A DNA stretch of 64,000 nucleotides, from NCBI RefSeq assembly GCF_030413175.1, contig NZ_CP129212.1, positions 1,116,001-1,180,000 on the forward strand, written 5' to 3'. Below are positions 3,318 to 15,212 of the stretch, piece by piece. The DNA comes from Bradyrhizobium roseum. Its GTDB lineage: Bacteria; Pseudomonadota; Alphaproteobacteria; Rhizobiales; Xanthobacteraceae. Within the stretch, counting starts at the first letter, position 1. Every line of letters starts with the position of its first letter. Below the pieces are notes generated by a model. The model saw only the letters and a program-made list of their open reading frames with translations, made no database searches and was not told where the DNA came from. A program made the translations under genes and the position numbers.

Positions 3318-4346
3318 ATGAGCTTCACCTCCACCGTCATCGCCACCGCCGAGCGCGTGCCGTTGCCCGATGTCATCGTCCGCGCCGCGATTCACCGGTT
3401 GTGCTCGCGCACCGCCCTGCGGCTCGCCACCGGGAATGCGGAAAGCGATGCCGTGTTTGCCGACGCCATGGCAGCGCGCGCCATCGCCGAACATGCCGAC
3501 GCGGCCAACGCCCAGCATTACGAGGTGCCGGCGGCGTTCTTCGCCCTTGTCCTCGGCCCCAACCGCAAATATTCCGCTTGCTTCTACAACGAACCGGCCT
3601 CGACCTTGCAGGAGGCCGAGGAAGAGGCGCTGCGCCAGACCGTTGAGCATGCCGATCTGGCCGACGGGCAATCGATCCTCGAACTGGGCTGCGGCTGGGG
3701 ATCCCTGTCGCTCTGGATGGCGCGGCAGTTTCCGCACTCGCTGATAACAGCGGTTTCCAATTCGAACTCGCAGCGAAAATATATCGAAGAAGAGGCCCGA
3801 TGGCGCGGCCTCTCGAATTTGCGGGTCATTACGCAGGACATGAACGTGTTCGCGCCCGAGGCGCGCTTCGACCGCATCGTTTCGGTCGAGATGTTCGAGC
3901 ACATGATGAACTGGCGCGAATTGCTGACCCGCGTCGTCGCGTGGCTGAAGCCCGATGGCCGCTTCTTCATGCACATCTTCACCCATCGTTCCGGCGCCTA
4001 TCTGTTCGATCGCACCGACGCCGAGGACTGGATCGCGCAGCATTTCTTCACCGGCGGCGTGATGCCGAGCCATCACCTGATCCGGCAATATTCCGATCTG
4101 TTCGAGGTCGAAAAGGAATGGCGCTGGAGCGGCGTGCACTATCGGCGCACCGCGCAGGACTGGCTCGACAATTTTGATGCCAATCGCGACGAGATCGAGC
4201 GGGTTCTCCGTGAGGTCTATGGCAGCGACGCCGCGTTGTGGATGCGACGCTGGCGCTGGTTCTTCCTCGCCACCGCGGGCCTGTTTGGATACGCCGGGGG
4301 GAGCGAGTGGGGCGTAAGCCATTACCGGCTGAAAGCCGCTGGCTGA
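3318..4346 (+). CDS. Cyclopropane-fatty-acyl-phospholipid synthase family methyltransferase
   Basis: 342 aa. The SAM-binding motif LELGCGWGSLSLWMA lies near residues 118-132, followed by AVSNSNSQRKYIE and SVEMFEHM, all typical of the cyclopropane fatty acid synthase superfamily. Members transfer a methylene or methyl group from SAM to unsaturated acyl chains of phospholipids. It is somewhat shorter than E. coli Cfa (about 380 aa) and lacks part of its N-terminal domain, so a related activity rather than classical ring formation is possible. The upstream DUF1295 gene points to a joint lipid-modification pathway. Confidence 0.85.
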   Translation: MSFTSTVIATAERVPLPDVIVRAAIHRLCSRTALRLATGNAESDAVFADAMAARAIAEHADAANAQHYEVPAAFFALVLGPNRKYSACFYNEPASTLQEAEEEALRQTVEHADLADGQSILELGCGWGSLSLWMARQFPHSLITAVSNSNSQRKYIEEEARWRGLSNLRVITQDMNVFAPEARFDRIVSVEMFEHMMNWRELLTRVVAWLKPDGRFFMHIFTHRSGAYLFDRTDAEDWIAQHFFTGGVMPSHHLIRQYSDLFEVEKEWRWSGVHYRRTAQDWLDNFDANRDEIERVLREVYGSDAALWMRRWRWFFLATAGLFGYAGGSEWGVSHYRLKAAG

Positions 4347-4660
4347 CGCTTCGATTCGCGGGGGATACCTCATTTTGGCAGTTATCCCGGCGCGAGGACG
4401 CGGTTCCCGATTCGCCGTAAACCTTAACGTGAGAACGGAACCCGACTCACAATCGAGTGACCCCGGGAAACAGCCGCGAATTCAGCACGATAGCGTTGTG
4501 TGACATTGGGCCGCCGCGCGATCGTATTGCATCGCAGCAGGTGCGGTTTATCCTCTGTTCATCAACTGAGTTCCAGGAGCTTCGGCCGTCGCCTTTCGGG
4601 GATGCCCTCCTGAACAACGTTGCGAATGATCAATTCGCGCTTTCAACCTGAACTGGGGCA
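4347..4660. other. Intergenic region before the RND pump operon
   Basis: This 314-bp gap has no convincing gene; the one short open frame (from 4457) lacks family character. It presumably holds the promoter of the efflux operon. I saw no clear operator palindrome and there is no adjacent regulator gene. Confidence 0.5.
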
Positions 4661-5878
4661 ATGCTTTCAATGTCCGGACTTCGAACGCGATCGGCATGCA
4701 TCGTTGTGATGTTGGCTGCGATGGCGCCGCTATTGGCTGGCTGTAACGAACCCACGGCGGTGGCCGCGGCAGCGACGGCTCCGGCCGAACCTGAAGTCGG
4801 CACCTTTACGGTGCGGCCGCAGTCCCGCGCCATCATCCGTGAATTGCCGGGCCGGATCGCGCCCACCCGGGTTTCGGAAGTGCGCGCGCGGGTCTCCGGC
4901 ATCGTCGTCGAACGCCTGTTCCAGCAAGGTACCGAAGTGACGGCCGGCCAGCCGCTGTACCGCATCGACCCCAAGCCGTTCGAAGTGGAACTGCAGGCGA
5001 GCGAAGCCGCGCTGGACAAGGCGGTGGCGGCGTTCGATCTCGCGTCCCAGCATGCTCGGCGCATCGCGACGCTGACCAGCCAGCGCGCGGCGCCCGAGGC
5101 CGAGAACGAAAAGGCGATCGGCGCCCAGCGCCAGGCCGAGGCCGAAGTCAGCAGCCGCAAGGCCGAAGTGGCGCGCGCCAAGCTCAACCTCGATTACGCG
5201 ACGATCCGCGCGCCGATCAACGGCGTGGTCGGCGCGGCGCTGGTGAGCGAAGGCGCGCTGGTGGTTCAGAACGAAAGCACCAGCCTCGCCACGATCCAGC
5301 AACTCGATCCGATCTATGCGGACTTCACCCAGTCCGTCTCCGAGATGAACAAGCTGCGTCGCGCGCTCGATAGCGGCGATCTCGACCGCATTGCGCCCGA
5401 CGCCGCCAAGGTCCGTCTGGTGCTCGATGACGGAACGGTCTATCCGATCCCCGGTAAGCTGCTGTTTTCCGAAGCCAAGGTGGACGCCTTTACCGGGCAG
5501 GTCACGTTGCGCGGCCAGTTTCCCAACCCGAAGCGCGAATTGCTGCCGGGCATGTATGTGCGCGTCCTGATCGAGCAGGGCATCGATTCCGATTCCATCG
5601 CCGTGCCGCAGCAGGCCATCCAGCGCGATGCCGGCGGCGGCAGCGAGGTGTTCGTGGTCAAGGAAGACGGCCGCGTCGCGATGCAGCCGGTTCGCACCGG
5701 CGCGGTGCAGGACGGTGTCTGGCTGATCAGCGAGGGCCTGAAGGATGGCGATCAGGTCGTTGTCGACGGGTTTCAGAAATTTGTTCCCGGCGACAAGGTC
5801 AAGGCGAAGGCGTGGATCGACGCGGATGCCTCGGTTGGGTCGGTATCGGGCGCACCGGCGACGCAAGCTGCGCGCTGA
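4661..5878 (+). CDS. RND efflux periplasmic adaptor (AcrA/MexA family lipoprotein)
   Basis: 405 aa. The N-terminus is a lipoprotein signal with lipobox LLAGC (Cys28), so the mature protein is likely anchored in the inner membrane and reaches into the periplasm. The rest follows the membrane-fusion-protein plan: biotinyl-lipoyl half (GRIAPTRVSEVRARVSG), helical hairpin (about residues 100-170), second lipoyl half (LDYATIRAPINGVVG) and beta-barrel. It bridges the inner-membrane pump and an outer-membrane channel. The pump gene follows 3 bases later; no outer-membrane factor is in the cluster, so a shared TolC-type channel is expected. Confidence 0.93.
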   Translation: MLSMSGLRTRSACIVVMLAAMAPLLAGCNEPTAVAAAATAPAEPEVGTFTVRPQSRAIIRELPGRIAPTRVSEVRARVSGIVVERLFQQGTEVTAGQPLYRIDPKPFEVELQASEAALDKAVAAFDLASQHARRIATLTSQRAAPEAENEKAIGAQRQAEAEVSSRKAEVARAKLNLDYATIRAPINGVVGAALVSEGALVVQNESTSLATIQQLDPIYADFTQSVSEMNKLRRALDSGDLDRIAPDAAKVRLVLDDGTVYPIPGKLLFSEAKVDAFTGQVTLRGQFPNPKRELLPGMYVRVLIEQGIDSDSIAVPQQAIQRDAGGGSEVFVVKEDGRVAMQPVRTGAVQDGVWLISEGLKDGDQVVVDGFQKFVPGDKVKAKAWIDADASVGSVSGAPATQAAR

Positions 5879-5881
5879 TCG

Positions 5882-8800
5882 ATGCCCAGTTTCTTCATCG
5901 ACAGGCCGATCTTCGCCTGGGTGGTCGCGCTTTTTATCTGTCTGATCGGCGCGATCTCGATTCCGCTGCTGGCGGTCGCGCAATATCCGATCATCGCGCC
6001 GCCCTCGATCTCGATCTCGACCAGCTATCCCGGCGCCTCGCCGGAAAACCTCTACAACAGCGTCACGCGGCTGATCGAGGAGGAACTCAACGGCGCCTCC
6101 GGCATCCTCAATTTCGAATCGACCTCCGACTCGCTGGGCCAGGTCGAGATCATCGCCAATTTCGTGCCGGGCACCGAGACCGGCGCGGCCTCGGTGGAAG
6201 TTCAGAACCGTCTCAAGCGCGTCGAGGCGCGGCTGCCGCGCGCGGTGATCCAGCAGGGCATCCTGGTCGAGGAAGCGTCTTCTGCCGTTCTGCAGATCAT
6301 CACGCTGAATTCGTCCGACGGCTCGCTCGACGAAATCGGCCTTGGCGATTTCATGATCCGCAACGTGCTCGGCGAGATCCGGCGGATCCCCGGCGTCGGA
6401 CGCGCCACGCTCTATTCCACCGAGCGCTCGCTGCGGATCTGGGTCGATCCCGCAAAACTCGTCGGCTACGGCCTCACCGCTGACGACGTCAACAAGGCCA
6501 TTACAGCCCAGAACGCGCAGGTCGCTTCCGGCAGCGTCGGCGCCGAGCCGAGCACGCCGGAGCAGAAGATTTCCGCGCTGGTGCTGGTCAAAGGGCAGCT
6601 CTCCTCGCCTGAAGAATTCGGCGCGATCACGCTGCGCGCCAATGCCGACGGCTCCACGGTGCGGCTGCGCGACGTCGCGCGCATCGAGATCGGCGGCCTC
6701 AGCTACCAGTTCAACACCCGCCTGGACGGCAAGCCGACCGCGGGTCTTTCCGTGCTGCTGTCGCCGACCGGCAACGCCCTGGCGACCGCGAGCGCCGTCG
6801 AAGCCAAGATGAAGGAACTGTCGAAGTTCTTTCCGACCAATATCGGCTATGAAATTCCCTACAACATTACGCCCGTCGTCAAGGCCTCGATCAACAAGGT
6901 GCTGATGACGCTGGTCGAAGCCATCGTGCTGGTCTTCATCGTGATGTTCCTGTTCCTGCAGAACATCCGCTACACCATCATCCCGACCATCGTGGTGCCG
7001 GTGGCGCTGCTCGGCACCTGCGCGATGCTGATGGCGGTCGGCTATTCCATCAACATGCTCACCATGTTCGGCATGGTGCTGGCGGTCGGCATTCTCGTCG
7101 ACGACGCCATCGTCGTGGTGGAAAACGTCGAGCGCATCATGGCCGAGGAAGGCCTGCCGCCCAAGGAAGCCACCCGCAAGGCGATGTCGCAGATATCGAG
7201 CGCCATCATCGGCATCACGCTGGTGCTGATGGCGGTGTTCGTGCCGATGGCGTTCTTCCCGGGATCGGTCGGCATCATCTATCGCCAGTTCTCCGTCACC
7301 ATGGTGTCCGCGATCGCCTTCTCGGCGCTGCTGGCGCTGTCGCTGACGCCGGCGTTGTGCGCAACGCTGCTGAAGCCGGTCGAGGCCGGCCACGCCCATG
7401 CGCGCAAGGGCGTGTTCGGCTGGTTCAACCGCGTGCTGGAGTCGACCCGCGGCGGCTATACGCGCACCGTCCAGGGTTCGCTGAAGCGCACCGGACGGCT
7501 GATGCTGATCTACGCCGTGCTGCTGATCGGCCTCGGCTGGGCGTTCGTACGGCTGCCCGGCGGCTTCCTGCCGGTCGACGACCAGGGCTTTATCACCACC
7601 GACGTGCAGACGCCGTCCGACTCCTCCTATGCCCGCACCCAGGCCGCGGTCGAGCAGGTCGAAAAATATCTGCTCAAGCGCGAAGGCGTCGAGAACGTGA
7701 CGTTCCTGACCGGCTTCAGCTTCCTCGGCCAGGGCGTCAACACCGCGCAGGCCTTCATCTCGCTGAAGGACTGGTCGGAGCGCGGCAAGAAGGAGTCGGC
7801 AGCCGCGATCGTCGCCGACATCAACCGCGACCTGTCGTCGATCCGCGATGCGAAGATCTCCGCGCTGCAGCCGCCGCCGATCGACAACCTCGGCAATTCC
7901 AGCGGCTTCTCGTTCCGCCTGCAGGACCGCGGCCAGAAGGGTTATGCGGCGTTGATCGCCGCCTCCGACCGCCTGATCGCGGAAGCCAATGCCAGCCGCG
8001 TGCTGCAAAAAGTCTATGTCGAGGGCCTGCCGCCGGCGCCGCAGGTCAATCTGATGATCGACCGCGAAAAGGCCGGCGCGTTCGGCGTCACCTTCGAGGA
8101 CATCAACCAGACCATCTCGACCAATCTTGGCTCGAACTACATCAACGACTTCCCGAACCGCGGGCGCATGCAGCGCGTGATCGTGCAGGCCGACCGCGCC
8201 AGCCGCATGAACGCCGACGACATCCTCAACTACAACGTCAAGAACAGCCGCGGCCAACTGGTGCCGTTCTCGGCGTTCGCCACCGTGCAGTGGCAGAAGG
8301 GCCCGACCCAGATCGCGGGCTTCAACTATTATCCAGCCGTGCGCATCTCCGGCGAGGCCAAGCCCGGCTTCACCTCCGGCGACGCCATCGCCGAAATGGA
8401 GCGGCTCGCGGGCAAATTGCCGCGCGGTTTCGGTTACGAATGGACCGGGCAATCTCTGCAGGAAAAACTGTCCGGCTCGCAGGCGCCGTTCCTGCTCGGT
8501 CTCTCGGTATTCGTCGTGTTCCTGCTGCTCGCCGCGCTCTACGAAAGCTGGACCATCCCGCTCGCCGTGCTGCTGACGATCCCGCTCGGCATCTGCGGCG
8601 CGGTCATCGCCGCCACCATGCGCGGCCTGTCGAACGACGTTTATTTCACCGTCGGCCTGATCACCATCATCGGCCTGGCGGCAAAAGACGCCATCCTCAT
8701 CATCGAATTCGCCAAGGATTTGCGCGCGCAGGGCAAGCCGCTGGTCGAGGCCACGATCGAAGCGTGTTCGCTCCGCTTCCGCCCGATCCTGATGACCGGC

Positions 8801-9046
8801 CTCGCCTTCGTCTGCGGCGTGCTGCCGATGGCGATTGCGACCGGCGCCGGCGGCGCCAGCCAGCAGGCGCTCGGCACCAGCGTGATGGGCGGCATGATCG
8901 CGGTCGTGATCCTGGCACTGCTGCTGGTGCCGGTGTTTTTCGTCAGCGTGCAGCGCGTGCTGGCGGGGGACCGGGAGAAGGTGGTGGAGACGGCGGCCGT
9001 TGCTGCGAGCGAGCCGCGAGCGCCATCGGCACAGCCAACGAAATAG
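5882..9046 (+). CDS. RND multidrug efflux pump, HAE-1 family (AcrB-like)
   Basis: 1054 aa, full length for AcrB/MexB transporters. It opens with FFIDRPIFAWVVALFICLIG, carries the proton-relay pair in GILVDDAIVVVENV on TM4 and the essential lysine in AAKDAILIIEFAKD on TM10, and has the two large periplasmic loops. It exports drugs, detergents or solvents using the proton gradient, as a trimer with the preceding adaptor. The start ATG is 3 bases after the adaptor stop, so the pair is translationally coupled. Substrate range cannot be read from the sequence. Confidence 0.95.
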   Translation: MPSFFIDRPIFAWVVALFICLIGAISIPLLAVAQYPIIAPPSISISTSYPGASPENLYNSVTRLIEEELNGASGILNFESTSDSLGQVEIIANFVPGTETGAASVEVQNRLKRVEARLPRAVIQQGILVEEASSAVLQIITLNSSDGSLDEIGLGDFMIRNVLGEIRRIPGVGRATLYSTERSLRIWVDPAKLVGYGLTADDVNKAITAQNAQVASGSVGAEPSTPEQKISALVLVKGQLSSPEEFGAITLRANADGSTVRLRDVARIEIGGLSYQFNTRLDGKPTAGLSVLLSPTGNALATASAVEAKMKELSKFFPTNIGYEIPYNITPVVKASINKVLMTLVEAIVLVFIVMFLFLQNIRYTIIPTIVVPVALLGTCAMLMAVGYSINMLTMFGMVLAVGILVDDAIVVVENVERIMAEEGLPPKEATRKAMSQISSAIIGITLVLMAVFVPMAFFPGSVGIIYRQFSVTMVSAIAFSALLALSLTPALCATLLKPVEAGHAHARKGVFGWFNRVLESTRGGYTRTVQGSLKRTGRLMLIYAVLLIGLGWAFVRLPGGFLPVDDQGFITTDVQTPSDSSYARTQAAVEQVEKYLLKREGVENVTFLTGFSFLGQGVNTAQAFISLKDWSERGKKESAAAIVADINRDLSSIRDAKISALQPPPIDNLGNSSGFSFRLQDRGQKGYAALIAASDRLIAEANASRVLQKVYVEGLPPAPQVNLMIDREKAGAFGVTFEDINQTISTNLGSNYINDFPNRGRMQRVIVQADRASRMNADDILNYNVKNSRGQLVPFSAFATVQWQKGPTQIAGFNYYPAVRISGEAKPGFTSGDAIAEMERLAGKLPRGFGYEWTGQSLQEKLSGSQAPFLLGLSVFVVFLLLAALYESWTIPLAVLLTIPLGICGAVIAATMRGLSNDVYFTVGLITIIGLAAKDAILIIEFAKDLRAQGKPLVEATIEACSLRFRPILMTGLAFVCGVLPMAIATGAGGASQQALGTSVMGGMIAVVILALLLVPVFFVSVQRVLAGDREKVVETAAVAASEPRAPSAQPTK

Positions 9047-9207
9047 GACTTCCTTAACCGAACGCGCCTTTTAGTCGCGCCAAAGTTGGAAGAGGGCGAT
9101 GCTACAATTACTAACCCTCTTGCTAACTCATACGGTCAGGGCGTAGCTCAGGTCAGGCATCTCAGTCACACATTCGGGATCGGAGTATCCGGAGTGCGAC
9201 GATTGAT

Positions 9208-10119
9208 ATGAATATCGGCAAGCAAATCACGCTATTCCTGAACTATTGCAGGCTCGAACGACAACTGTCAGAAAATACGCTGCAAGCGTATGCCTATGAC
9301 TTGGCTGATTTTCGCAAATGGTTGCCGGCGCGGAACTCTCTCGCTGCCATCAAGACAGAAACACTACGCGACTATCTGGAAGAGATGAGAACGCGTGAAT
9401 TCTCTCCCGCCACCATCCGCCGGCATCTCGCCTGTCTCCGTTCGTTCTTCCGGTTCATGGAATATGAGGGCAAGTGCACCAACCCGTTCACGGGATGGCG
9501 ACTGAAACTGCCGCGACGCAAGCGTTTGCCAAGAGCCTTGTCGCGCAAGGAGACGTCAAGCCTTCTAAGTCTGGCTCGCGGGTCCCGTCGCGGAAGGAAG
9601 GCCGCGGGTCATTCGCATATTCTCGATATCGAGATACGGCTGATGATTGCCACCGGAATTCGAGTCGGGGAGATGTGCAAGATTCAGATCGGGGACGTTT
9701 CGGCCGACGGCTCCACTCTTCGCATACACGGCAAGGGTTCGCGTGACCGCATCGTCTACGTTGCGGATTCGGCTCTCCAAAATGATCTGCAAAAGCTGAC
9801 CTCTTTCCGCCGACGCCTGATCATGGCCGACGGCCCGTTGTTTATCAATCGCAGCGGCAAGAAATTGCGGCCGCACTCCTTCCGTTCGAAGTTGCGTAGC
9901 TTTGCAGGTCAGGCCGGCATCGAGCGACGCGTGACGCCGCACATGTTGCGGCATACGGCGGCGACATTGCTGATCGAAAGCGGCGTCGATATCAGGATCG
10001 TACAGCGGTTGCTTGGGCATTCGAGTATCGCAACGACGGAAATTTATACTCACGTCACCGATCAGGCGCTTCGGACGACGCTTGAGCGTGTGAATATCGT
10101 TGGTGGGCTTGCGGCGTAG
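9208..10119 (+). CDS. Tyrosine recombinase / integrase (XerC/D-like)
   Basis: 303 aa, with an N-terminal SAM-like core-binding domain (about residues 5-90) and a C-terminal catalytic domain. The catalytic set is present: Arg in ATGIRVGEM, Lys in IHGKGSRD, H-x-x-R in TPHMLRHTAATLL, His in LLGHSS and the nucleophile Tyr in TTEIYTHV. It performs site-specific DNA breakage and joining. Its base composition is less GC-rich than the flanking core genes. It sits 60 bases upstream of the left member of a 19-bp inverted repeat pair, making it the obvious candidate to act on those repeats or to have mobilised the insert. Housekeeping XerC/XerD is less likely given the neighbours. Confidence 0.9.
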   Translation: MNIGKQITLFLNYCRLERQLSENTLQAYAYDLADFRKWLPARNSLAAIKTETLRDYLEEMRTREFSPATIRRHLACLRSFFRFMEYEGKCTNPFTGWRLKLPRRKRLPRALSRKETSSLLSLARGSRRGRKAAGHSHILDIEIRLMIATGIRVGEMCKIQIGDVSADGSTLRIHGKGSRDRIVYVADSALQNDLQKLTSFRRRLIMADGPLFINRSGKKLRPHSFRSKLRSFAGQAGIERRVTPHMLRHTAATLLIESGVDIRIVQRLLGHSSIATTEIYTHVTDQALRTTLERVNIVGGLAA

Positions 10120-10178
10120 TTATTCCAGGCTTCGAAAACGCTTCGCCGCACCTTGAAAACTAGAAGGGTTGCCGAATC

Positions 10179-10197
10179 CACATAACTCCGGATTATG
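10179..10197 (+). repeat. Left 19-bp inverted repeat overlapping the ATPase start codon
   Basis: CACATAACTCCGGATTATG ends exactly with the ATG of the ATPase gene. It is identical to the reverse complement of 13780-13798, which ends with the ATG of the ATP-grasp gene. Internally it is nearly a palindrome (CATAA, TCCGGA, TTATG with one extra C), as expected for a recombinase core or a dimeric operator. The identity stops right after the start codons and one base upstream of the repeat. Confidence 0.85.
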
Positions 10198-12675
10198 CGT
10201 CTGCTTTTAGAAGCCCTCGACCGAATCGAGTTGGCCGACGAACTTGCCCGAACACTCGCTGACGGACAGTCGTGTTGGCTGAGTGGTCCGTCCGGTAGCG
10301 GCAAAACAGAGCTATCTCGCTATGTTGGATCTCAGCGGTCTGGCGTCGCCGGGGAGGTGCACTGGATCGTCGGCGATAAAGATCAGTCTGGGACGACGTG
10401 TCTTGCCGCGCACCGCATGCTGGCAGCGACGCGACCCCGGCGAGCTGCACGGGAGGCTGACAGGGAGATTCCAACTGCAGCTCTGCGTGGTATTCCTTGG
10501 GTCGGCGGTCCTATTTCGGCATTGGCCAAAGCGTTTCTCGCCAGGATGGAAGTGACAGGTCCCGACTTTCTGCCATCCGAAATGCAAGATCTCCTGTCCG
10601 GCTTCCAAAGAATCTGCATCAGCGAGCGAGTTCTCTTCATCGTTGATAATGTGCATTGGCTCGACACTGGCACGGCAGAACTGCTTGTACGGATGAAATC
10701 ACCTGAGGTAATTGAAAGTTACCCCTTCGCGGCACGCTCATCCTTCCTCTTCATCGAAACCACCGATCAGGAAGCGCTGCCGTCAACCGCTGCAGATGTT
10801 GCAACGTTAAAGTCGCTAACGTTTAAGACTTTCGCTTTGCCGTTTCCCTCGCGCGCACAGTTTCCTATTATCTTGAAGATGTTCGGGCTGGCACGTGCGC
10901 CTGATCCGGATATCTGCGATCGCCTTTACGACGTTACTCGTGGGCACCTAAGGCTCGCCAAGGAGATTGTTCGCCTGCTGAATACCGACGGTCCAGAGGC
11001 GGAGTTGGGGCGAGAGAATGCCACGACGCCAACAGAAATGGCAAAGCGATTGCTTGGACTCCGGCTACAGACCCTCGCCCCCTCAACACCGCATATTCAA
11101 AAGCTTCTCGGGATTGCTTCTTGTATTGGACAGACGTTCTCTAGGCGCGAGTTAGAATGCGCTTTTGCTGACCCACTTGATTTTGCCTCGGCCCTCGATT
11201 TAGCCCGCCGGGAAGAATTTCTTTCTGGCGAGGACGACTCTCTCCAATTTGCTCACGATATAGTGCAGAGCGCCTTGAAGGCACTTGTGGAGTCTGATGC
11301 TGCGCCGTTTCATGACAAGCTGGCTGAGTGCATCCGTCATATTCGACCCGGCGACTATCGCGCACGTCTGCGCCACTCAACCCTTACTAACAATTCGCAT
11401 CGGACGGCGTCATTGGCATTCGCACTATTGATGCAGGAACGTAGGGGAGAAATAGTTCTCGATGAAGATGTTGATCGCCCATCTGACGAGATGACGCGAG
11501 AATACAACGGCGCACTCCGTGCAACCTCGTCAGCCTTACGTGCAATGGACAACGGGCGTCACACAGAGGCCATCAATGAGCTCGTCCTGCACTATGACGG
11601 CACCAACGCCCTCGTTCAAGGTGAGATCGCCTATCTCATTTCACTCAACTACTATAAGAAACGCGGCCGATCCGATTACCAGAACGCTCGCGTTGTACTT
11701 GAGCCGTGGGTTGCGCGACGCGACGAAGGCGAGCTTTGGTATCGTCTTATGCTAACCCTTGCAGTCGTCAATGCCTCTCTCGGCGACCAGCGTGCTAGCA
11801 GTGAGGTGCTCACCCGCGTGCGAACGCACCTTGAGCGTTCCGCTTTCCACGACCCACACGCCCGGACAAAAATTCAGATACTCAACAGAAAGGCCGACGT
11901 CTTTTACCCGCTAGAGGTTGCCGGCGCCCTTATCGAAAAGGCAGTAAAGTACTTTGCGGCGCCGCAAGGTGGTGGAATGCCACGCAACGCCTTTCAGTAT
12001 AGCGCCGCGCTCATTAATTTGGCGGGCAATGCATATTTTCGCGGTGAATTCTCCGCCAGTGTCACCAATGCTGATGCGGCGGTCAGGTTTATCAGCACGT
12101 TTTCGGATCGGATCCGATTGCCTGAAGCGTACAAAGCTTTCAACAATTACGTCATTGCAGCGGTTCGTGCCGCACACATCACGCCGCGCGAGGGATTGGA
12201 TATTTTAGATTCGATTGCACAAACCACCGGCGGTTCTGATCGATTTGATTACGCGCTACTCTCAGCAAATCGTGGCGCCTTGGCTATCTTGGATGGGGGC
12301 ATCACAGAGGGCGATGCTCTGTTAGGACGAACATTCGAGCGCTGTAAGATTGACGGCGTCGAGGGATACTATCTTCTGTTTGTCGCAAGTAATTTCGCGG
12401 CGTCACGATACCTTCTGGGTGCATCGGAACGCGCTCTGGAGCTTTTGGACGAGGTAGACAGGTGCATGTGGGAAATTCCAAGCGAGCTCCGCCGCTCAAT
12501 CGAGTTGAGGCAAGCCTGCATGCGTCACGCGATCGAGAACGGAATTGCAAAAGAACCCGAAAGTTGGGACGGCTATCCAAAGACTGTGCATGGCGGCGAC
12601 GGGCCCCACATATCGTGGCGCGCAGTTGGCTACGGCATTATCATGTCTGACATTCAAGTGTGGTCCGAAAGTTAG
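10195..12675 (+). CDS. STAND-like P-loop ATPase with C-terminal helical repeats
   Basis: 826 aa. Walker A is GPSGSGKT at residues 31-38 and Walker B is LFIVDNVHWLD at 147-157; the latter style is typical of the AAA_16/STAND group that includes MalT-like proteins. From about residue 400 the protein is alpha-helical and resembles TPR-type repeats (for example AYLISLNYYKKRGR and ANRGALAILDGGITEGDALL). No helix-turn-helix, nuclease or toxin domain is obvious. STAND proteins are usually sensor switches in signalling or anti-phage defence. The start codon is embedded in a 19-bp repeat shared with the facing ATP-grasp gene, whose stop is only 18 bases beyond this stop. Function unknown. Confidence 0.8.
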   Translation: MRLLLEALDRIELADELARTLADGQSCWLSGPSGSGKTELSRYVGSQRSGVAGEVHWIVGDKDQSGTTCLAAHRMLAATRPRRAAREADREIPTAALRGIPWVGGPISALAKAFLARMEVTGPDFLPSEMQDLLSGFQRICISERVLFIVDNVHWLDTGTAELLVRMKSPEVIESYPFAARSSFLFIETTDQEALPSTAADVATLKSLTFKTFALPFPSRAQFPIILKMFGLARAPDPDICDRLYDVTRGHLRLAKEIVRLLNTDGPEAELGRENATTPTEMAKRLLGLRLQTLAPSTPHIQKLLGIASCIGQTFSRRELECAFADPLDFASALDLARREEFLSGEDDSLQFAHDIVQSALKALVESDAAPFHDKLAECIRHIRPGDYRARLRHSTLTNNSHRTASLAFALLMQERRGEIVLDEDVDRPSDEMTREYNGALRATSSALRAMDNGRHTEAINELVLHYDGTNALVQGEIAYLISLNYYKKRGRSDYQNARVVLEPWVARRDEGELWYRLMLTLAVVNASLGDQRASSEVLTRVRTHLERSAFHDPHARTKIQILNRKADVFYPLEVAGALIEKAVKYFAAPQGGGMPRNAFQYSAALINLAGNAYFRGEFSASVTNADAAVRFISTFSDRIRLPEAYKAFNNYVIAAVRAAHITPREGLDILDSIAQTTGGSDRFDYALLSANRGALAILDGGITEGDALLGRTFERCKIDGVEGYYLLFVASNFAASRYLLGASERALELLDEVDRCMWEIPSELRRSIELRQACMRHAIENGIAKEPESWDGYPKTVHGGDGPHISWRAVGYGIIMSDIQVWSES

Positions 12676-12693
12676 AATCTACGAATTTCAAAT

Positions 12694-13782
12694 TCAATAC
12701 CAACCAAGACGTTGAGCGTTAGCCGCCACTACAGCCCCTAGCACGTCGGCATGTCGAAAACCCGCCTGATCGAACCAGAAGGCAAACGCGCTATGCCTCA
12801 CAAGATGCGGGGTCGTCGCTACATCTGTAATGAAAAACCGATTGTCTGGTCCAATCCTGAAATCGACGCGTCCGATCGCGGTCATCCCTAGCGCACGAAA
12901 AACCCGCTTGGACGTCTCTCTCATTTCTTCACATGTTCTCTGGTCAAGGTGCGTGCACATTGCAAACCCTCCGAGATCGTCCGCCACGATGTCATAGTCG
13001 AGAATTCGGTCGCCAAGAATAGGGCTGCCATCCAGTGTCATCGCTACGGGATCCAATGAGAACGCCTCGCCAAAAAGGTCTATGACTGGAACCTCCGCTT
13101 CGCTGCCCGCGATGAATCGCTGCACGATAAACGGTTGCCGCAACGCGGCCACCTTACGCGCCAGCGACGTTTCATATGCATAAGATAGCTCGCCAATGCA
13201 CTCGTGGTCCAAGCCAATACTTGCCGACTCATGGCAGGCCTTTGCTATAAGCTTGAGTTCATGAGGCGGCTTTTGATCAAAAAGCCAGCCCTGCTCATCG
13301 AAAAGCCAAGACTCGGTTGCCGGAAGACCCAGCGCTCGTAAGATTAAAGAAACATGAAATTTGTGGCGCGCCAATGAAAGGACGTATGCGTTCGAGTTAC
13401 AAACGGGAATGTTATGTAGGGTGCAAAATGCTGGAATCAGTGACTTACGACCTGCCCCTGTGCCGCTCTGCGAGGTGTTGTAGACTAGCTTCCGCGGCCT
13501 CGGCAGATTGCTGAACGAGCCCTCGAGAATCGCAGTGATGAATTCCAATTCGCCGACATAGAGTTTGGTATAAAAACCGCATTCTTGCAGACCGAGAAGA
13601 ATCTGGCTGGCTTCGTTCTCCGAGAAGTACTCGGTCACGACGGAAGAGACGTCGTAGTCGCCCGCTTTTACATCCGATGACTTTAGGTTTGCCACGAGAG
13701 GAACCGTGAGTGTATCTGCAATGGATGTGATCGCATGCAGTGCGCGTGCAATAGTCTCCACTGCTTGTGCATTCACGGCCAT
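12694..13782 (-). CDS. ATP-grasp ligase, D-Ala-D-Ala ligase-like
   Basis: 362 aa. The middle follows the Ddl/ATP-grasp pattern: KLVYNTSQSGTGAGRKSLIPA, HNIPVCNSNA, a small-residue/basic stretch, LRALGLPATESW, then QRFIAGSEAEVPVI and GRVDFRIGPDNRFFITDVATTP, where metal and ATP ligands lie in this fold. Such enzymes join a carboxylate to an amine through an acyl phosphate. The usual Ddl ending (EINTMPG) is replaced by DVATTPHL, so it is probably not a cell wall ligase but may make or modify a small peptide or amino acid conjugate. It is convergent with the ATPase gene, and its ATG lies in the second copy of the 19-bp repeat. Confidence 0.78.
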   Translation of the reverse strand: MAVNAQAVETIARALHAITSIADTLTVPLVANLKSSDVKAGDYDVSSVVTEYFSENEASQILLGLQECGFYTKLYVGELEFITAILEGSFSNLPRPRKLVYNTSQSGTGAGRKSLIPAFCTLHNIPVCNSNAYVLSLARHKFHVSLILRALGLPATESWLFDEQGWLFDQKPPHELKLIAKACHESASIGLDHECIGELSYAYETSLARKVAALRQPFIVQRFIAGSEAEVPVIDLFGEAFSLDPVAMTLDGSPILGDRILDYDIVADDLGGFAMCTHLDQRTCEEMRETSKRVFRALGMTAIGRVDFRIGPDNRFFITDVATTPHLVRHSAFAFWFDQAGFRHADVLGAVVAANAQRLGWY

Positions 13783-13798
13783 AATCCGGAGTTATGTG
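13780..13798 (-). repeat. Right 19-bp inverted repeat overlapping the ATP-grasp start codon
   Basis: Read on the minus strand this is CACATAACTCCGGATTATG, identical to 10179-10197, and it ends with the ATG of the ATP-grasp gene. Together the two copies bracket the ATPase and ATP-grasp genes as perfect inverted repeats about 3.6 kb apart. Confidence 0.85.
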
Positions 13799-13942
13799 CT
13801 AGTTGCTCGCATAGGTAGAGACTGTATCTAAAATCCACCGTCTGGCTAGCCATCTGTTGGACGGTGCTGGTGTAATTAGTTGGCCTTGGGTGCTTGTGCC
13901 GGCAGAGAATAATCTGTACATTCGCCGCATAGAGTGCGGAGA

Positions 13943-15061
13943 ATGGCTGGACAAATCTATCAACGGCCTGATTGGCCCAGCTTTCATTGCGATCAGGGGG
14001 CGCTTGCCCACCAACTCGGCGCCGTACGGTACCGGCAAGGACGGCTGATCGGCCGCATGCAGGCGCTTGGCTTCCCTCTGCAGGAACAGGCCGTCCTCAA
14101 AACCCTCACCGAGGACGTTCTCAAGTCCAGCGAGATCGAAGGCGAAATTCTCGACAGGAATCAGGTGCGCTCGTCCATCGCCCGGCGTCTCGGGATTGAT
14201 GCGGGGGCATTGCTTCCGGCCGATCGCAACGTCGAGGGCATCGTCGAGATGATGCTGGATGCGACCCAAAGGTTCGACCAGCCTCTCAGCTCTGCAAGAC
14301 TATTCGGTTGGCATGGAGCGCTGTTTCCGACGGGCCGCAGCGGTCTGGACAAGATCAAGGTCGCCCAGTGGCGCGACGAGGAATCGGGGCCGATGCGCGT
14401 CAGTTCCGGCACGTATGGTCGCGAGAGGGTTCACTACGAAGCACCGGCGGCCGATCGGCTCGATCATGAAATGCGGGGCTTTCTCATCTGGTTCAATCGC
14501 GAAGAAGAGCTTGATCCGGTCGTCAAAGCCGCGCTCGCGCATGTCTGGTTCGTCACCATCCATCCATTCGACGACGGCAATGGCCGCATCGCGCGCGCCA
14601 TCGCCGACATGTCGCTTGCACGGTCGGAAGCCAGCCCGCAGCGCTTCTACAGCATGTCGGCGCAGATTCAGCTGGAGCGGCAGGCCTATTACGAGGCGCT
14701 GGAAGCGACGCAGAAAGGCGGTCTCGATATCACCCATTGGCTCGAATGGTTTTTGGCGTGCCTGGACCGCGCATTCGATGGCGCCGAAGCGATCCTGTCG
14801 AGCGTCTTCCGAAAAGCAGAATTCTGGAGAGCAAATGCCGCGACGCAGCTCAATGAGCGTCAGCGCGACATCCTCAATCGCCTGCTCGATAGATTCGAAG
14901 GCAAGTTGACGACGTCGAAATGGGCAAAGATCGAGAAGTGTTCGGCGGACACTGCGCTGCGCGACATCAACGAACTCGTCGCGCTCGGCATTCTTGCGAG
15001 AGACGAAGCGGGTGGCCGCAGCACCAGCTATTCGCTCGCGGAGATCAAGGCCGATCGCTGA
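13943..15061 (+). CDS. Fic family protein (AMP transferase-type)
   Basis: 372 aa from this ATG; an in-frame GTG at 13934 is an alternative. The N-terminus (QIYQRPDWPSF) is of the DUF4172 type, the inhibitory helix motif S-x-x-x-E-G is seen in KSSEIEGE, and the catalytic Fic motif HPFDDGNGRIAR begins at about residue 207. A winged-helix-like C-terminus (LTTSKWAKIEKCSADTALRDINELVALGIL) follows. These proteins usually transfer AMP from ATP to a protein side chain and are held inactive by the N-terminal glutamate. It lies just outside the right inverted repeat and may be part of the same insert or a neighbour; no antitoxin gene is needed because the inhibitor is built in. Confidence 0.9.
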   Translation: MAGQIYQRPDWPSFHCDQGALAHQLGAVRYRQGRLIGRMQALGFPLQEQAVLKTLTEDVLKSSEIEGEILDRNQVRSSIARRLGIDAGALLPADRNVEGIVEMMLDATQRFDQPLSSARLFGWHGALFPTGRSGLDKIKVAQWRDEESGPMRVSSGTYGRERVHYEAPAADRLDHEMRGFLIWFNREEELDPVVKAALAHVWFVTIHPFDDGNGRIARAIADMSLARSEASPQRFYSMSAQIQLERQAYYEALEATQKGGLDITHWLEWFLACLDRAFDGAEAILSSVFRKAEFWRANAATQLNERQRDILNRLLDRFEGKLTTSKWAKIEKCSADTALRDINELVALGILARDEAGGRSTSYSLAEIKADR

Positions 15062-15212
15062 CCGGCAGGTCCGTCTGATGATGGCCTTATGCCGCTGATT
15101 TGCCCGACGTGTCAAACATGCGCTTCGTCACAGAGCCAAGCGTCCGGCTACTGTGCATGGGGTTGTTTTCGATGTTTTAGTTTGGAGGCCGCGGACGTCG
15201 GCAACCGTCGCT

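Follow-up and report, generated by a model that had tools for sequence, protein, structure and literature searches.

We describe a candidate invertible element in a 64,000-nucleotide stretch of the Bradyrhizobium roseum genome (hereafter the window; positions 1,116,001 to 1,180,000 of contig NZ_CP129212.1), where a gene for a STAND-type ATPase and a convergent gene for an ATP-grasp ligase lie between two copies of a short inverted repeat, with a tyrosine recombinase gene alongside (Table 1). The first-pass annotation of this DNA had proposed an invertible gene switch, on the grounds that a 19-bp repeat contains both start codons, is nearly palindromic and follows a tyrosine recombinase gene by 59 bases, and each of these observations was borne out. 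The sequence CACATAACTCCGGATTATG forms a perfect inverted repeat (0 mismatches) around the pair, has the shape of an imperfect palindrome (CATAA-N7-TTATG), and holds the start codon of one gene in each copy; the identity of the copies ends, as had been noted, directly behind the ATG (C versus G), and likewise directly ahead of CA (C versus G). Because each start codon would move with its gene, both reading frames would survive an inversion. With up to 3 mismatches allowed, the window holds 2 matches to this sequence, the known pair (expected 0.00; 0 of 100 shuffles reached 2), and the whole genome (one contig of 7,319,411 bp) holds the same two copies and no third; recurrence of the motif upstream of unrelated genes, named beforehand as a sign of an operator, was not found there. 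The recombinase carries the motifs GIRVGE, GKG, HMLRH, LGH and IYTH between residues 150 and 282 and thus a full R-K-H-R-H-Y catalytic set, to whose residues we presume the usual roles. An integron was considered and rejected: the integrase model gave 114.2 bits against a cut-off of 265, and the sites are inverted rather than direct.

Table 1. Coordinates of the putative cassette and its surroundings within the window.
Feature	Position	Strand	Remarks
Invertible cassette (candidate)	10179..13798	.	3620 bp between outer repeat ends; like segments inverted in relatives
Left recombination site (putative)	10179..10197	+	ATPase start codon 10195-10197 inside; relatives share layout
Right recombination site (putative), inverted	13780..13798	-	ATP-grasp start codon 13780-13782 inside
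Tyrosine recombinase, 303 aa	9208..10119	+	XerC/XerD-like; scores under XerC/D equivalog cut-offs
STAND-type ATPase (putative), TPR-like C-terminal part, 826 aa	10195..12675	+	Walker A GPSGSGKT at residue 31
ATP-grasp ligase, D-Ala-D-Ala ligase fold, 362 aa	12694..13782	-	Convergent with ATPase
Fic gene (DUF4172 plus Fic, SoFic-like)	13934-15061		Adjoins right site on outside, within same insertion
Approximate insertion: recombinase, cassette and Fic gene	9000..15205	.	Between RND efflux gene and inositol-monophosphatase gene

The evidence for inversion comes from three pairs of related loci in which the DNA between the repeats is turned round within collinear flanks. In the Paenibacillus family, the flanks of loci L117 and L118 are collinear at 94.9% and 93.5% identity with an inverted segment at 99.1%, and those of L121 and L122 at 85.8% and 85.0% with an inverted segment at 96.2%; in the window's own genus, L205 and L206 have flanks at 98.6-99.5% and 90.5% and an inverted segment at 97.1%. 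The breakpoints fall at the sites in all three pairs, which provide for the family both orientations in otherwise collinear DNA. As the outer neighbours of the core stay with the flank and the inner ones with the gene, the crossover between L205 and L206 must, on these alignments, lie within about 17 bases. A comparison of orientation among relatives, suggested in the first-pass annotation, likewise found both directions: of the 22 ATPase/ATP-grasp cassettes to which a recombinase is linked, 12 have the ATP-grasp gene on the recombinase side and 10 the ATPase gene, and the recombinase tree requires 9 changes or more (the Paenibacillus algorifonticola locus, L104/L071, is outside this count because its contigs give no direction). 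By comparison, the window element would belong to the site-specific invertible gene switches served by tyrosine recombinases; in the window and in its relatives, inverted sites flank the segment and are identical within each locus.

The layout spans Alphaproteobacteria to Bacillota. A convergent pair with an adjacent tyrosine recombinase was found on a Methylobacterium plasmid and a Paenibacillus plasmid and in Reyranella, Ruegeria, Enterococcus (with the recombinase on a flanking contig), Paenibacillus, Lachnospiraceae and an acidobacterium. Perfect inverted repeats surround the pair in 17 of 21 loci tested from a first set, from which L085 (a 61-residue match) and L078 (a short contig) were left out, and also in L084, L106, L107 and L117-L123. 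The repeats vary in sequence among loci and match inside each locus, with a common core, by eye, of NATAAY-N5-RTTATN. No repeat pair was found in L075, L077 (which has only an 11-bp chance match) and L083, since each is incomplete, lacking one end or a portion of the pair; these three count among the 21 and not in the orientation count. Of the 31 relative loci with the ATP-grasp gene, 19 have a similar recombinase next to the pair, and flank contigs of L103 and L104 carry one too; 9 of the other 10 are segment-only, short, or on contigs ending near the pair, and L075 and L077 have no recombinase within about 8 kb on the ATP-grasp side, the ATPase side being cut off.

When the recombinase was taken as the query, 25 relatives were found in 290 genomes of the Paenibacillus family, 17 with a complete site-bounded convergent cassette and 8 that run out of contig. 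Among 17 same-genus genomes with a recombinase relative, 9 bracket a complete cassette (10 loci, the window included), 3 stop at the site, 1 (G055) stops before it, and 4 lack a repeat; two of these last carry the closest recombinases (62%), on contigs that end 0.8-0.9 kb before the recombinase. Recombinase relatives with no inverted repeat nearby were seen at L185, L186, L211 and L212, and these perhaps have a different function or have lost their cassettes. The 17-bp core on plasmid L064 is identical to that of chromosomal loci of the Paenibacillus family, and plasmids could thus deliver cassettes.

Something breaks assemblies at the repeats. Among the ATP-grasp homologues, the longest contig measures 3550-3690 bases for 28 of the best 120 of 226, against 0 and 1 in the adjacent bins of the same width, and the window's repeat-to-repeat unit of 3620 bases lies inside this bin. 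The segment forms a separate repeat-bounded contig in genomes G594, G595, G622 (3622 bases) and G673 (3569 bases) and at L073, L076 and L081. In Enterococcus termitis LMG 8895 (G594), the segment is a 3987-base contig starting and ending in a 28-bp repeat, and each flank contig extends 71 bases beyond the repeat, giving 99-bp overlaps; an assembly with a k-mer of 99, as these overlaps imply, would read through a repeat of 28 bp if only one join were present, so the repeat alone explains the break poorly. In P. algorifonticola XJ259, the segment (3651 bases) and both flanks stop at a 35-bp repeat, and in G301 a 3726-base contig has 79 bases of flank ahead of its 20-bp repeat. Contig ends lie within 100 bp of the site in 7 of 25 recombinase-bearing genomes of the Paenibacillus family (G595, G622, G673, G770, G783, G800 and G696, the last stopping where the site is expected) and equally close in 3 of 17 same-genus genomes (G180, G034 and G151). 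Searches of four genomes and one plasmid gave no match to the site pattern away from the locus; one genome, whose site differs, gave no match at all.

The segment between the sites is also replaced. The recombinases of L117/L118 and L121/L122 are 93-99% identical, whereas their ATP-grasp proteins share 27% and their ATPases 24-26%; the corresponding values for recombinase, ATP-grasp and ATPase are 89%, 29% and 23% between L119 and L123, and 88%, 37% and 25% between L064 and L069. A single chromosomal slot, that of L117, which by our own reading of the sequences lies ahead of glgC-like and glgD-like genes, holds one of two ATPase/ATP-grasp types, a Thoeris ThsA/TIR pair (L149), or an aminotransferase with a pentapeptide-repeat gene (L150, 96.0% identical to L117 in its right flank). 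The L149 cassette consists of convergent TIR and ThsA genes at 3753-6080, the latter combining SIR2 and STALD (PADLOC ThsA E 4.9e-145), and L154 has a ThsA/TIR cassette as well (E 3.3e-97). We class both as Thoeris on their strong ThsA matches and clear TIR domains, the ThsB models matching weakly (E 4.3e-6 and 3.1e-8); in both loci the genes are convergent, site-bounded and adjoin a tyrosine recombinase. Elsewhere the cassettes encode a polyprenyl synthetase (L153 and L159) or a methyltransferase (L158) with an unknown protein, or an AAA_16-type ATPase with an ATP-grasp protein (L152 and L155). In the window's genus, where the site core closely resembles CATAACTCGGAATTATG, the cassettes include pairs of methyltransferase type (clearly so in L203 and L210, weakly in L202), a 2-oxoglutarate-dependent oxygenase pair, and a pentapeptide pair in which the partner lacks any Pfam match. 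The flanks of L207 and L208 agree at 96.3% and 91.8%, around different cassettes. The proteins of L151 and L156 were named from DNA similarity to L150 and L154. At L156 (G763), two 100% identical 2263-bp ThsA/TIR-like cassettes lie in opposite directions with about 130 bp of flank duplicated, which reflects either a genuine array or both orientations showing through in the assembly.

Genome comparison thus establishes inversion at the sites in three pairs and replacement of segments at conserved recombinase loci. A transposon-like element of 3.6 kb, moving as such, would also have perfect terminal inverted repeats and a standard length, and the unit is often found alone on contigs of that length. 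We nevertheless consider a transposon extremely improbable: no transposase lies inside the unit and a similar recombinase stays outside it, orthologous loci keep their flanks on either side although what lies between is turned round or exchanged, inspection by eye revealed no target duplication at the ends of the window's cassette, and the genomes with a match in the searches gave one each (in the window's genome, one repeat pair).

Very probably, to judge from these comparisons, the locus is an exchangeable, invertible two-gene cassette whose neighbouring recombinase flips and swaps convergent, defence-like pairs. The tyrosine recombinase encoded alongside would act on both inverted sites. 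Recombination from site to site would flip the pair, bringing either the ATPase or the ATP-grasp gene to the recombinase side, and double recombination with a second cassette carrying compatible sites would replace the pair through those sites, as in recombinase-mediated cassette exchange. The two sides would give different expression, and the cassettes would be immune modules composed of a small-molecule enzyme with a sensor or effector, in the window a Ddl-type ligase with an NLR-like STAND ATPase.

For the expression step, the Paenibacillus family offers a candidate mechanism. In these loci, a ribosome site (GGAGG) lies inside the repeat and travels with the gene, and the outer arm stays put. 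On the recombinase side, where the outer arm is ACCTCC, folding predicts a hairpin that closes off the ribosome site (0.00-0.03 unpaired in all 16 loci); its distal counterpart is open (0.16-0.81 unpaired) in 13 of 16. The loci are related, so that these counts are not independent, and L152 (no ribosome site by pattern) and L156 were left out. The values for Enterococcus are 0.00 and 0.20. In the folding models, the anti-Shine-Dalgarno arm is a plausible toggle that would seal the ribosome site of the near gene, and the complete palindrome may be there for the recombinase to bind. In the loci of this family examined for it, the stop codon of the recombinase gene lies inside the site or at most 17 bases ahead of it, so that ribosomes translating this gene could open the hairpin. 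Promoter-like scores gave weak evidence for a promoter on the distal side and, beside the two repeats of the window, no convincing promoter.

The same hairpin bears on the alternative raised in the first-pass annotation, a common operator or leader formed by the repeats and controlling the two genes together; on this view there would be no inversion. A near-palindrome containing both start codons and folding, in the Paenibacillus family, over the ribosome site is what such an operator might look like, and the window strain presents a single orientation. As the only function of the repeats, we regard it as very unlikely, because it explains neither the segments inverted with breakpoints at the sites in three related genome pairs nor the whole segments that differ between the sites at conserved loci, nor the breaking of assemblies at the sites. 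The switch first proposed is upheld by the three natural inversions, the 12:10 orientations and these breaks; an operator role in addition to recombination is possible.

What the pair does is less certain. The ATPase exceeds the AAA_16 cut-off, and its structural model (predicted local distance difference test [pLDDT] 80.4, predicted template-modelling score 0.58) is nearest by Foldseek to the STAND-TPR protein 6mfv, Avs3 and MalT, with plant NLRs lower and overall template-modelling (TM) scores low; we describe it as a putative NLR-like STAND-TPR ATPase. The alphaproteobacterial group of this ATPase family has a conserved SDIQVWSES-like C-terminal tail (12640-12675 in the window), possibly a substrate or docking tail. 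The high-confidence ATP-grasp model (pLDDT 89.8) matches D-Ala-D-Ala ligases across most of its length (best 21% identity, TM 0.67), and the protein shares their fold and their Pfam C-terminal domain. It was rejected as a D-Ala-D-Ala ligase proper, the best NCBIfam model giving 57.6 bits against a cut-off of 243; the family has D-x-A or D-x-S at the position of the ligase motif, which we take to be E-x-N. Additional GNAT or methyltransferase genes lie next to the ATP-grasp gene within the cassettes of L066, L070, L079 and L084, which suggests a modified small-molecule product. A reading of the window cassette as Thoeris was also rejected, ThsA and TIR proteins being absent.

An immune role for the window's pair is our best guess, and a somewhat favoured one, given the Thoeris cassettes on the same kind of platform; it is argued from company and fold. 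The cassette could also flip and swap while its genes work in metabolism, in cell-wall modification or in signalling, and not in defence, which we think possible if rather doubtful. The D-Ala-D-Ala ligase fold would suit such a role, as would the GNAT or methyltransferase genes added in some cassettes, the aminotransferase, polyprenyl synthetase or methyltransferase of others, and the lack of a PADLOC match for the window's pair. It fits poorly with the Thoeris cassettes on a like platform, one of which shares a chromosomal slot with ATPase/ATP-grasp cassettes, with the STAND proteins nearest the ATPase model (Avs3 and plant NLRs included), and with the quick replacement at conserved loci, which is typical of conflict genes. 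More tentatively, we propose a widespread new class of immune locus. In it, a resident tyrosine recombinase would maintain one docking place, flip a convergent signal-maker/effector pair to choose which partner is highly made, thereby hedging against what immunity costs, and trade pairs with DNA that enters the cell, the slot being occupied in turn by NLR-like, Thoeris and unknown systems. The ATPase/ATP-grasp pair would then be an anti-phage system not described before, with a ligase that produces a peptide-like signal.

Several findings weigh against the cassette as we have drawn it. The support for inversion is genome comparison rather than reads, and the assembly of the window strain holds the cassette in one orientation only. 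Of the recombinase-bearing genomes of the same genus, 4 of 17 (G149, G171, G064 and G070) show no such repeat. The asymmetry at the ribosome site fails in 3 of 16 loci (L064, L069 and L155, where the distal side is also 0.00), and no consistent asymmetry was found in Alphaproteobacteria, the window and its genus included. On the contigs of L073 and L080 the repeat measures 55 bp, enough to break an assembly unaided. The window's ATPase/ATP-grasp pair has no PADLOC match, and its relatives have weak matches only. Finally, cassette type, by labels that we assigned, is somewhat clustered on the 40-row recombinase tree, with at least 14 changes (minimum 6) against a shuffled mean of 16.5, a value as low being reached in 2 of 200 shuffles; such clustering is as expected from inheritance between exchanges.

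Parts of this arrangement are familiar from other systems. The G segment of phage Mu and the C segment of phage P1 are switched by inversion between two alternative, opposite gene sets; they resemble the present locus in their opposed gene sets, but employ a serine recombinase and encode tail fibres, and we know of no exchange of unrelated pairs as cassettes in them. Integrons likewise exchange unrelated gene cassettes at a position beside a tyrosine recombinase. Most of those cassettes are circles with one gene, joined in direct order at attC, whereas here the sites are inverted, the genes are two and convergent, and the segment flips. Thoeris itself (ThsA, a SIR2-STALD protein, with the TIR protein ThsB) is represented by the ThsA and TIR proteins of L149 and L154, and differs here in being convergent and site-bounded, with a recombinase alongside. 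In Ureaplasma, site-specific inversion at short inverted repeats alternates expression of mba and UU172 (PMC3047005), and the tyrosine recombinases RipX, XerC and CodV have been proposed as the enzymes (PMC3599477). The likeness lies in the short inverted repeats and the proposed class of enzyme; the Ureaplasma genes are surface antigens, with no exchangeable cassettes described in the parts of these sources available to us, and the present loci hold defence-like two-gene modules that are replaced wholesale and occur in several phyla. PsrA of Streptococcus pneumoniae, a tyrosine recombinase, inverts part of the type I restriction hsdS locus (PMC7096588, PMC4948785) and thus, like the enzyme considered here, would act on a defence-related locus; hsdS systems reshuffle the specificity genes of one enzyme, and replacement by unrelated gene pairs is not described in the available portions of those papers. 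By analogy, the locus would work like an inversion switch of the UU172 kind combined with cassette exchange. Among the matches listed from the open PubMed Central (PMC) literature, no report linked invertible or exchangeable cassettes to defence, described an ATP-grasp/recombinase pair, or placed convergent Thoeris genes in a site-bounded segment beside a recombinase.

The locus would thus unite phase-variable inversion and cassette exchange, previously known apart, with a cargo that includes a proven anti-phage class, and this may account for the convergent arrangement of such pairs. It would also offer a genetic route to unknown immune pairs, which could be found by reading the DNA between the sites, and bet-hedging of immunity by flipping becomes directly testable.

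The region as a whole is, by its alignments, an accessory insertion missing in relatives. In 7 of 23 same-genus loci examined, alignments to the flanking RND and inositol-monophosphatase genes stop 96-212 bp apart; 4 of the 23 have 0.96-1.43 kb between the flank genes, and 12 have no RND end in reach. The ATPase/ATP-grasp pair is rare by profile search: with a threshold of E 1e-40, the ATP-grasp profile hit 2 of the 385 genomes searched in the class, including that of the window, and 11 of 295 genomes of the Paenibacillus family. Recombinase relatives at L187 (G180), L188 (G151) and L189 (G064) adjoin an RND gene like that of the window, and L187 begins 6 bases ahead of a site whose 17-bp core is that of the window; the slot beside the RND gene looks like a hotspot.

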